Source: Bradyrhizobium sp. 164 (GTDB lineage Bacteria > Pseudomonadota > Alphaproteobacteria > Rhizobiales > Xanthobacteraceae). From it: DNA of 64,000 nucleotides. The stretch spans positions 186,001-250,000 of the forward strand of contig NZ_JADPKA010000095.1 of NCBI RefSeq assembly GCF_023073715.1, given 5' to 3'. Position 1 is the first letter of the stretch. Every line of letters starts with the position of its first letter. Shown one piece after another: positions 51,728 through 56,203 of the stretch. The notes under the pieces were generated by a model. It was not told where the DNA came from. It worked only from the letters and a program-made list of their open reading frames with translations, and did no database searches. Both the position numbers and the translations under genes were made by a program.

Positions 51728-51927
51728 GGGACGTCCGAGCTGGTGGCCTCATTCGGGCGGCATGATGGCAGCGGCACAACAACGCCTACCTTGCGACAAT
51801 AAATCCGACGACACGCGATCATTCGCGCGAACCGGACGTCACACGCTGCGTCGTTTCGACGCCCGCTCTGGCGGGAACGCGCTGCATGCTCATCTGTTGT
51901 CACACGACATTCAACCGGAGTGATGAC

Positions 51928-52248
51928 ATGAAGTATCTCTTTGTCGCGATCGCGATCGGTGCTGCGGCGCTTGCCGGCGGATCGGCGGCGAACGCGGCCG
52001 ATAATTCGAGCGCGAAGCAGAACGCGCAGGACAGCCGATCGACCGACATCAGCGCGCAGCATAGGCACTATTATCACGGCCACCGGCACCATCATCACTG
52101 GCGTCATCACCACCATGGCCATTATCGCCCCCATTACCGGAGCTACGGCTATTACCCGCGGCACCACGGCTATTATGGCGGCGGCCCGTACGGATATTAC
52201 GGCGGTGGTCCCGGCGTAACTTTTAGCTTCGGCGGCGGACGCTGGTGA
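51928..52248 (+). CDS. Small secreted His/Tyr/Gly-rich protein
   Basis: A protein of 106 residues from the ATG at 51928, with CGGAG eight bases upstream. The signal peptide ends near 22 (Ala-Asn-Ala). From about 44 it is nearly all His, Tyr, Gly, Arg and Pro (HRHYYHGHRHHHHWRHHHHG, then GYYGGGPYGYYGGG). The mature part has no Cys. Metal chelation is plausible. It resembles the design of the gene at 6371 but is not a close paralogue. A terminator follows at 52256. Confidence 0.68.
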   Translation: MKYLFVAIAIGAAALAGGSAANAADNSSAKQNAQDSRSTDISAQHRHYYHGHRHHHHWRHHHHGHYRPHYRSYGYYPRHHGYYGGGPYGYYGGGPGVTFSFGGGRW

Positions 52249-54727: not shown

Positions 54728-55507
54728 TCACATCGCGCGTGCCAGAACGATCGTGCCGGACAGGATGAGGACCGCGCCCGCCGCATAACTCAATCGCCGG
54801 CCGAGCGGCAGCAGTTTCTCAGCGGCGACATAGAGCGCAATGCCGACGACCCAGGCTAGATTCATCGCGCCGCCGACGAACAGCAATGCCATCAGAAACC
54901 AGCAGCAGCCGACGCAATAGCTGCCGTGGCGAAGTCCCATCCGCAAAGCTCCGCGCGTGCCGGGCCGCCAATGCCGGCTGAGAAACAGCAGCGGGCTCTC
55001 GCAGTAGCGCAGGCACGCATGTTTGAGCGGCGTGAACTGGTAGAGGCCTGCGGCAAGCAGAATGCTGCCGCCGAAGATTGCGCTGGTGCTGGTCATCGCC
55101 ATCGACAGCAATCCCAAGCGTTCCAACACCGATTGCGCCAGGACCGCAACGACACTGAACCCCGCCCATGTCACGAGATAACCGGCGAGAAAGATCCAGG
55201 CATCGATTGCGGCCCGGGATGCAGTCTCCTGCTTGCGCTTGACGGTCGCATACAAGAGAACGGTGGGCGCCGCGCTCGGCGCCATCATCGCGATCATCAT
55301 CACCCACCACATCACGAACAGCAGCGCAGCGTAGAGTGGCGTCCACGGCATTGGCGCCATGTCCGGCATGGCGGTCATCATCTCGGTGTCCATGCCGGCG
55401 CCCCCCGCGAGATAGGCCCAGGCGAGCGCCGCCACTGTGGCGGTCCCGATTGCGACGATCAGCCGGTCGCGCTGAAGTAGGCGTTCCAGCATCAAGCGCC
55501 CCCGCAT
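54728..55507 (-). CDS. DUF2182 predicted metal-binding integral membrane protein
   Basis: A protein of 259 residues with about seven hydrophobic helices. It has MWWVMMIAMMAPSAAPTVLL near 66-85, LKHACLRYCESP near 161-172 and LRHGSYCVGCCWFLMALLF near 192-210, the Cys/His/Met-rich motifs of DUF2182. A loop near 39-54 has six Met among 16 residues (MDTEMMTAMPDMAPMP), which could bind Cu or another soft metal. It follows DUF1326 by 63 bases; the two families are often neighbours. Confidence 0.87.
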   Translation of the reverse strand: MRGRLMLERLLQRDRLIVAIGTATVAALAWAYLAGGAGMDTEMMTAMPDMAPMPWTPLYAALLFVMWWVMMIAMMAPSAAPTVLLYATVKRKQETASRAAIDAWIFLAGYLVTWAGFSVVAVLAQSVLERLGLLSMAMTSTSAIFGGSILLAAGLYQFTPLKHACLRYCESPLLFLSRHWRPGTRGALRMGLRHGSYCVGCCWFLMALLFVGGAMNLAWVVGIALYVAAEKLLPLGRRLSYAAGAVLILSGTIVLARAM

Positions 55508-55570
55508 GGACTTTTCCAGGATCGCGATGAGGAGCCGACACCGAGGCCTCGTCTCGATGTCAGCGCCGCA

Positions 55571-56203
55571 TCATGCCGCAATGCCCTCGGGCGTTTGCAC
55601 GACATTGGCGAGCGAGCTGTGCGTGCCCTGGGTCTCGAACGGGATCGCACCGGTCGAGCGGATGTTGGCGGACGCGATCTCGGCAGCCCTGTGCTCGAAT
55701 CCCTCGGGCATCACCACCTGGATGCGGTGCGGATCACCCGTCACCGGATTCCTGATCGGCTCGACGTCGGTCTCGAGCACGCCCGTGGCGACGAGTTTTG
55801 CGACGCGGCCGTCCTTGTCGAAGGAAAATTCGAAGGGGGCGAAAATCGGATCGTGGATCTTGGTGACGATGAGGCTGACAATCTGAAAAAGCGTACCCTC
55901 GGCCGAATGTTTGCCTGAAAAGATATTGAACAACGCCTGGCGCTGTTCCGGCGCGGCGCGTTCGTCGATGATGGGCTGGATTGTCCCGTTGCCTTCATGC
56001 AGCGGGCCGGGGAAATCGACCGTGATCGCGAAGCACAGACCGTCGAGCCTGGTTCCTTCGAAATGTCCTTTGGCGATCCGCATGCCGAACATTCCCTTGC
56101 AATAGCCCTTGGTCGGCGGCGCATTGAAATCGCAGGGGCAGCCAAACGCGCAGGTGCAATTCTTCATCCATTCGCCTTCGAGACGCCAGTCCGATGCAGC
56201 CAT
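55571..56203 (-). CDS. DUF1326 family protein
   Basis: A protein of 210 residues. The N-terminus has WMKNCTCAFGCPCDFNAPPT (about 12-31), with a Cys-x-Cys-x-x-x-Cys-x-Cys cluster, then YCKGMFGMRI. This Cys pattern is the hallmark of DUF1326 and suggests a metal or redox site. No signal peptide is seen. It is upstream of the DUF2182 membrane protein on the same strand, forming a two-gene operon. Its function is unknown. Confidence 0.87.
   Translation of the reverse strand: MAASDWRLEGEWMKNCTCAFGCPCDFNAPPTKGYCKGMFGMRIAKGHFEGTRLDGLCFAITVDFPGPLHEGNGTIQPIIDERAAPEQRQALFNIFSGKHSAEGTLFQIVSLIVTKIHDPIFAPFEFSFDKDGRVAKLVATGVLETDVEPIRNPVTGDPHRIQVVMPEGFEHRAAEIASANIRSTGAIPFETQGTHSSLANVVQTPEGIAA

Follow-up and report, generated by a model that had tools for sequence, protein, structure and literature searches.

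Bacterial copper import is poorly understood. Eukaryotic CTR1 copper importers have methionines on the outside, a helix with an MxxxM-like motif and cysteines on the inside. Bacterial MerT/MerP systems combine a membrane protein with a soluble thiol carrier. A further described case is the PpoB2 protein (COG5486) of Marinomonas mediterranea, which is involved in copper transfer to tyrosinase and whose gene is found in an operon with the tyrosinase gene ppoB1. The Pfam family PF09948, formerly DUF2182, is now named "PpoB2, copper chaperone" after this Marinomonas protein, and ppoB2 is also called a copper chaperone in PMC8523701.

These data correct the premise of a sequence-only reading of the locus described here, which had stated that neither DUF1326 nor DUF2182 has a firm role. 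This is wrong for DUF2182, a family with a characterised member. The names DUF1326, DUF2182 and COG5588 appear in none of the open-licence papers searched, a literature which most subscription papers lie outside. The membrane half of the pair belongs to an already described copper family, here in a two-protein form with DUF1326.

The gene pair and its surroundings

The window is the whole stretch of 64,000 nucleotides from Bradyrhizobium sp. 164 which we have analyzed. Its (-) strand contains a DUF1326 gene (55571..56203, 210 aa, Pfam PF07040) as the upstream gene and a PpoB2 (DUF2182) membrane-protein gene (54728..55507, 259 aa, Pfam PF09948) as the downstream gene. The pair which had been read from the sequence at 54728-56203 is found there, with both families over their curated cut-offs in the Pfam scan: E 4.7e-51 and 173.9 bits for PF07040 (cut-off 25), E 7.2e-68 and 228.7 bits for PF09948 (cut-off 28.7). 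NCBIfam models do not match either protein at E up to 1. The two genes are separated by 63 bp (55508..55570). This gap and the shared strand are consistent with a single operon, and the same order with short gaps is found in most of 80 loci from named records, the best 80 of at least 509 PpoB2 matches. The 7.4 Mb genome contains one copy of each gene.

The closest of these 80 loci (L070 and L102) are both from Bradyrhizobium, with membrane proteins 84-85% identical to that of the window and flanks largely syntenic with it. The region might also be read as a recent island, which this synteny does not support. As a measure of selection in the lineage of the window, dN/dS compared with the two Bradyrhizobium orthologues is 0.10 and 0.14 for DUF1326, 0.28 and 0.22 for PpoB2.

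The flanking genes with a Pfam match code for an amine oxidase, a RibD_C protein, Maf, a low-molecular-weight phosphatase, histidinol dehydrogenase and a TPR protein; no metal gene is found among them. A tRNA-Phe sits between DUF1326 and Maf. We have detected no promoter-like site, and no CueR-like operator of the form searched for is present in the window. The window also contains, at 51886-52248, a short protein rich in His and in Gly/Tyr, which starts with a signal-like stretch; it matches no Pfam family and might bind metal. Tyrosinase (PF00264) has no match in the genome, which speaks against it as a client there. For this reason we do not class this PpoB2 as a tyrosinase chaperone.

Linkage and distribution

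The two families had been described as repeatedly adjacent, and our counts agree. A DUF1326 gene adjoins PpoB2 in 75 of the 80 loci, which lean to the subfamily of the window because they are the best-scoring of at least 509 confirmed matches to the PpoB2 alignment. Five loci have no DUF1326 gene call. One of them (L139), which is archaeal, has a copy cut by the contig end (E 1.4e-14), two (L133 and L140) have less than 60 bp upstream of PpoB2, and the last two (L079 and L089) show no DUF1326 match in the 973 and 372 bp upstream, respectively.

A class sample, with 289 genomes, gives a similar picture: 37 of them contain DUF1326, 39 contain PpoB2 over cut-off and 35 contain both (Fisher p 3.5e-38, ignoring kinship). 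Among the 44 over-cut-off PpoB2 places in this sample, 32 have DUF1326 within 3 kb. DUF1326 comes first in 20 of these, PpoB2 in 9, the genes are convergent in 2, and DUF1326 is found on both sides in 1. Adjacency in three arrangements suggests that the linkage has been retained or regained through rearrangement. Two of the 12 PpoB2 places which have no DUF1326 match within 3 kb (L158 and L161) adjoin a piece of DUF1326. Conversely, PpoB2 is found within 3 kb of 35 of the 70 DUF1326 places and is absent at the other 35, of which 30 are longer than 100 codons. DUF1326 is therefore also used outside the pair.

According to the record titles, the sources of the pair-bearing loci among the best 80 of at least 509 include Pseudomonadota, Acidobacteriota, a Zixiibacteriota, Gemmatimonadaceae, Opitutus, Sinomicrobium and Nitrospina. 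With the plasmids, the range extends to actinomycetes, a cyanobacterium and Haloferax. Within Bradyrhizobium, DUF1326 is found in 74 of the 126 genomes sampled, with up to four copies per genome. Some loci (L186, L185, L229) have two DUF1326 genes beside one PpoB2. We should also note that in two genomes (L151:3568-5046 and L154:4679-6223) a DUF899 gene, instead of DUF1326, is found beside a divergent PpoB2 homologue.

A co-occurrence search for further partners had been proposed, and it gave no recurrent third gene among the neighbor families listed. We scanned up to two ORFs per side, spurious ORFs included, leaving out likely near-duplicates by organism name (L086, L090, L098, L104, L118, L144). 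Among the families listed, 25 of 200 downstream and 25 of 136 upstream, the commonest Pfam families reach at most 5 of the 132 neighbor ORFs downstream and 3 of the 129 upstream, and no metal family recurs. SCO1/SenC appears among 2 of the 129 upstream neighbors. The largest neighbor cluster covers 10 of the 80 loci (again the best 80 of at least 509). A constant third gene, of which the families listed give no sign, was rejected. Since no flanking gene recurs widely, DUF1326 and PpoB2 look like a tight two-gene unit of their own.

Conserved residues and predicted structures

The Cys-x-Cys-x3-Cys-x-Cys site which had been noticed in DUF1326 corresponds to C16-x-C18-x3-C22-x-C24. The conserved cysteines are five and not four, as C35, absent from the sequence-only reading, belongs with them; in translation, the codons of the cluster and of C35 cover 56099..56158 (-). 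In an alignment of 106 proteins, no columns are invariant other than C16, C18, C22, C24, C35 and G46. All five cysteines are present in 169 of 170 DUF1326 sequences, the window protein included, which speaks against chance. This count leaves out one gapped row and may include the same gene twice, where two overlapping loci cut it in different ways. The sole exception, L061, has Ala in place of C24. No signal peptide is visible by eye in an alignment of 31 DUF1326 proteins.

The predicted model of DUF1326 (pLDDT 96.1, pTM 0.91) resembles proteins of the acetoacetate decarboxylase superfamily, which also includes MppR. The eleven best VIA rows all belong to this superfamily (Z 8.9-9.7, rmsd 3.5-4.3 over 151-160 residues), the best being 4zbo, with Z 9.7 and rmsd 3.7 over 159 residues. 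The top three Foldseek matches belong to it as well, with E from 3.2e-4 (3bh2) to 8e-4 and TM-scores of 0.33-0.43. As models with no clear match usually reach a best VIA Z of 7-8, we consider this likeness a resemblance and not a proof. Acetoacetate decarboxylases use a Schiff-base mechanism, which requires a lysine. The DUF1326 alignment has no conserved Lys, the commonest Lys column being filled in 43 of 106 proteins, and decarboxylase chemistry is therefore unlikely.

The membrane protein is rich in soft ligands. Its maximum of methionines, the six in 16 residues which had been reported, is at residues 39-54, inside a Met-rich loop 1 (residues about 35-56, 55340..55405 (-)) with a mean K+R of 0.9, which is predicted to be periplasmic. 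Met makes up 17.5% of the residues aligned to loop 37-60 versus 4.1% after residue 82, counting 100 of the 102 PpoB2 rows, since two are too short. Helix 2 carries the motif M66-W-W-V-M70-M71-I-A-M74-M75-x-P77 (55277..55312 (-)), in which M66, M70, M71, M74, M75 and P77 are invariant (n=102). A third region (54890..55015 (-)) contains C165-x3-C169, in a predicted cytosolic loop, together with H194, C198-x2-C201-C202 and M206, all invariant or nearly so. The invariant columns include C165, C169, C198, C201, C202, M206 and M215, besides the five methionines of helix 2. In a larger set, M70, M74, M75, C169, C198 and C202 are found in all 168 PpoB2 sequences and all 11 key positions in 151 of them. 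These 168 are the sequences ungapped at the key positions, of 172 rows; they include copies with no DUF1326, but not every one of the most distant homologues (L150, L153).

Hydropathy, the AlphaFold model (pLDDT 92.3) and loop charges lead us to predict seven membrane helices with the N-terminus inside. The orientation is based on the positive-inside rule: mean summed K+R is 12.3 for the predicted inside loops versus 1.6 for the outside loops, with loop limits set by us, and 5.1 for the loop 157-192. From helices and charges, the Met loop is thus predicted to be in the periplasm and C165-x3-C169 in the cytosol. Foldseek and VIA give no useful match of PpoB2 with solved structures. The CTR copper transporter fold is absent from the rows listed, where the best Z, 5.8, corresponds to an unrelated chain.

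Possible roles and comparison with known systems

The reading which we prefer, with about the same chance of being right as of being wrong, is that the pair forms a two-protein copper-handling module, in which PpoB2 takes up Cu(I) and DUF1326 is a cytosolic carrier or buffer. PpoB2 would be placed in the inner membrane, with its Met-rich loop collecting Cu(I) in the periplasm. The metal would then move by way of the Met motif in helix 2 and the Cys/Met motif in helix 5, and would arrive at C165-x3-C169 on the cytosolic face. There it would be received by DUF1326, presumably a soluble barrel of the cytosol whose first 35 residues contain the five Cys. DUF1326 would act as carrier or buffer, either to supply some cuproenzyme or to store the metal safely. 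The genes, their tight linkage and the conserved Met/Cys ligands are observed, topology and folds are predicted, and a PpoB2 relative is known to transfer copper; that the metal is Cu(I), that it flows inward and that DUF1326 accepts it are our inferences.

Several kinds of evidence are in favor of this copper module: a characterised family member, tight linkage, no recurrent third partner among the neighbor families listed, conserved soft ligands, the predicted placement of Met outside and Cys inside, and the metal-gene contexts of homologues, with which we also count the SCO1/SenC neighbors. For the plasmid contexts we have used 23 regions picked by hand from match lists, of which 20 are annotated and three are not, so that they serve as examples and not as rates. 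In plasmids of Mycobacterium lentiflavum and M. intracellulare, a PpoB2 with no DUF1326 has csoR, a gene for DUF1490 and one for a copper-translocating ATPase in its vicinity, and the M. intracellulare locus also has a multicopper oxidase. In one genome, a PpoB2 homologue with no DUF1326 has a multicopper oxidase and a tyrosinase nearby. The pair itself has a heavy-metal-associated (HMA) protein and a P-type heavy-metal ATPase about 1-2 kb away in Rhodococcus sp. WAY2. In Microvirga an RND metal exporter is at 3-4 kb from the pair, and in Caballeronia grimmiae a tyrosinase is at about 2 kb. Against the copper module we have counted that a metal-related gene is found in only 5 of the 20 annotated plasmid regions, that no metal family recurs among the neighbor families listed, that MerT is enriched in pair genomes, that the orientation depends on the positive-inside rule, that PpoB2 has no useful structure match, that there are DUF1326 places with no PpoB2 within 3 kb, and that the window has no CueR-like operator of the form searched for.

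Some of the same neighbors could correspond to copper detoxification, with DUF1326 binding excess cytosolic Cu(I) and PpoB2 exporting it or storing it in the membrane. The csoR gene, the copper and heavy-metal ATPases and the RND exporter are contexts of a resistance type. Nevertheless, the characterised PpoB2 relative supplies copper to an enzyme, the predicted order of ligands, Met outside and Cys inside, fits inward flow better, and no metal-resistance family is among the recurrent ones in the 25 neighbor families listed per side. We regard detoxification as possible but rather improbable.

Another setting has genes of DMSP demethylase (DmdA) nearby. In eight of the nine places of the class sample where PpoB2 comes first, the pair adjoins a DmdA gene and/or one for an acyl-CoA synthetase on the same strand, as is also the case in plasmids of Marinovum algicola and Antarctobacter heliothermus. 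The DmdA proteins of G022 and G193 are over the equivalog cut-off (682.6 and 504.6 bits, cut-off 410), and the G154 and G252 proteins share 83% and 81% identity with that of G022. The synthetase is found at G165, G263, G037, G016 and G193. The ninth place, G200:C11, has neither gene. At L172, L194, L174, L175, L178 and L179, from several Alphaproteobacteria including Roseobacteraceae, DUF2182-DUF1326 is just before a DMSP demethylase gene, and in most of them a regulator of the GntR or another type precedes. In G016, where PpoB2 is a fragment, a gene of the SBP56 family follows; methanethiol oxidase, which belongs to this family, is Cu-dependent according to PMC5739008. SBP56 proteins over 300 bits are found in 7 of the 35 pair genomes, the window's included, versus 8 of the 254 others.

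These neighborhoods could point to a role in the metabolism of DMSP or methanethiol, where the pair would handle either a thiol or thioether or else the copper for an enzyme which oxidises thiols. We consider this unlikely. The pair is missing from 19 of the 24 genomes with DmdA (>350 bits), and the association of DmdA with the pair has p 0.19. Where scanned, the synthetases reach 301-332 bits, while the cut-off of the DmdB model is 822, and the SBP56 protein of G016 reaches 154.9, while that of MtoX is 650. In the window's genome, DmdA gives no match at E up to 1e-40. The SBP56 gene of this genome (G000:C50:35853-37229) is on a different contig from the pair, and at E up to 1e-30 its protein does not match the MtoX model.

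Mercury or another soft metal, with PpoB2 as a MerT-like protein and DUF1326 as its thiol carrier, seems to us quite improbable, in spite of several features which recall it. MerT is found in 11 of the 35 pair genomes versus 16 of the 254 others (Fisher p 6e-5, ignoring kinship and genome size). In Microvirga a MerR-family gene is about 0.8 kb upstream of the pair, and the vicinal C201-C202 in a PpoB2 helix recalls the Cys pair of MerT. On pHG1 of Cupriavidus necator, the pair is followed, on its own strand, by a gene for a GDCCVxC (seleno)protein (L064:6105-7804). Nevertheless, none of the MerT places in the 11 shared genomes is in the neighborhood of a pair: they are megabases away in two (G168 and G197) and on other contigs in nine, where fragmented assemblies make the separation less certain. 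The annotations of the 20 annotated plasmid regions include no merA, merP or merT, MerT (PF02411) does not match the window proteins at E up to 1, and it has no match in the window's genome.

The enrichment of MerT is about equal to that of the copper-related families tested. Tyrosinase, for example, is found in 5 of the 35 pair genomes versus 14 of the 254 others (p 0.06). As the trend is the same for MerT, for SBP56 and for tyrosinase, with no correction for genome size, completeness or kinship, co-occurrence does not discriminate the metal, and we have discarded it as a metal test. The soft-metal handling, Cu or similar, which had been suggested from the sequence is supported by the characterised copper relative, the conserved soft ligands and the copper-gene contexts, while co-occurrence does not settle between Cu and Hg. 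Our preference for copper is based on the characterised relative and on the copper genes found as neighbors. In summary, soft-metal handling by the pair is very likely and copper is the likely metal, while inward flow with DUF1326 as acceptor has about even chances.

Finally, DUF1326 might belong to the acetoacetate decarboxylase superfamily as an enzyme whose Cys site binds a structural Zn, with PpoB2 as an unrelated neighbor, which in view of the missing lysine and of a linkage far above chance we consider highly improbable in spite of the structural rows.

If the pair is an importer with its carrier, as in the copper module which we prefer, this would give a function to DUF1326, a domain found from rhizobia to haloarchaea, and would extend the one characterised PpoB2 case beyond tyrosinase. 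It might also link copper supply with marine organosulfur turnover. A broader proposal, which we find doubtful, is that of a widespread two-component system for Cu(I) uptake and delivery, in which a soluble decarboxylase-like barrel has turned into a five-Cys copper carrier with a membrane importer of its own and which, within the DMSP-demethylation operons of some marine bacteria, supplies copper for methanethiol oxidation.

The window protein and Marinomonas PpoB2 belong to the same Pfam family, with the E value of 7.2e-68 given above, a likeness by family membership. The partner is different: tyrosinase PpoB1 in Marinomonas, DUF1326 in a genome with no tyrosinase match in our case. The predicted DUF1326 model shows some resemblance to the acetoacetate decarboxylase superfamily (4zbo, 4jmd, 3bgt and others) and not to a known copper chaperone. 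It differs from the decarboxylases in sequence (6-10% identity in the top 11 rows), in the conserved Lys, which it does not have, and in its five conserved Cys. With respect to CTR1 and MerT/MerP, the window proteins show no Pfam match and no useful fold match, and PpoB2 has seven predicted helices. The likeness is in the arrangement: as in CTR1, the predicted PpoB2 has Met outside, an MxxxM-like helix and Cys inside, and as in MerT/MerP, the pair consists of a membrane protein and a putative soluble thiol carrier.
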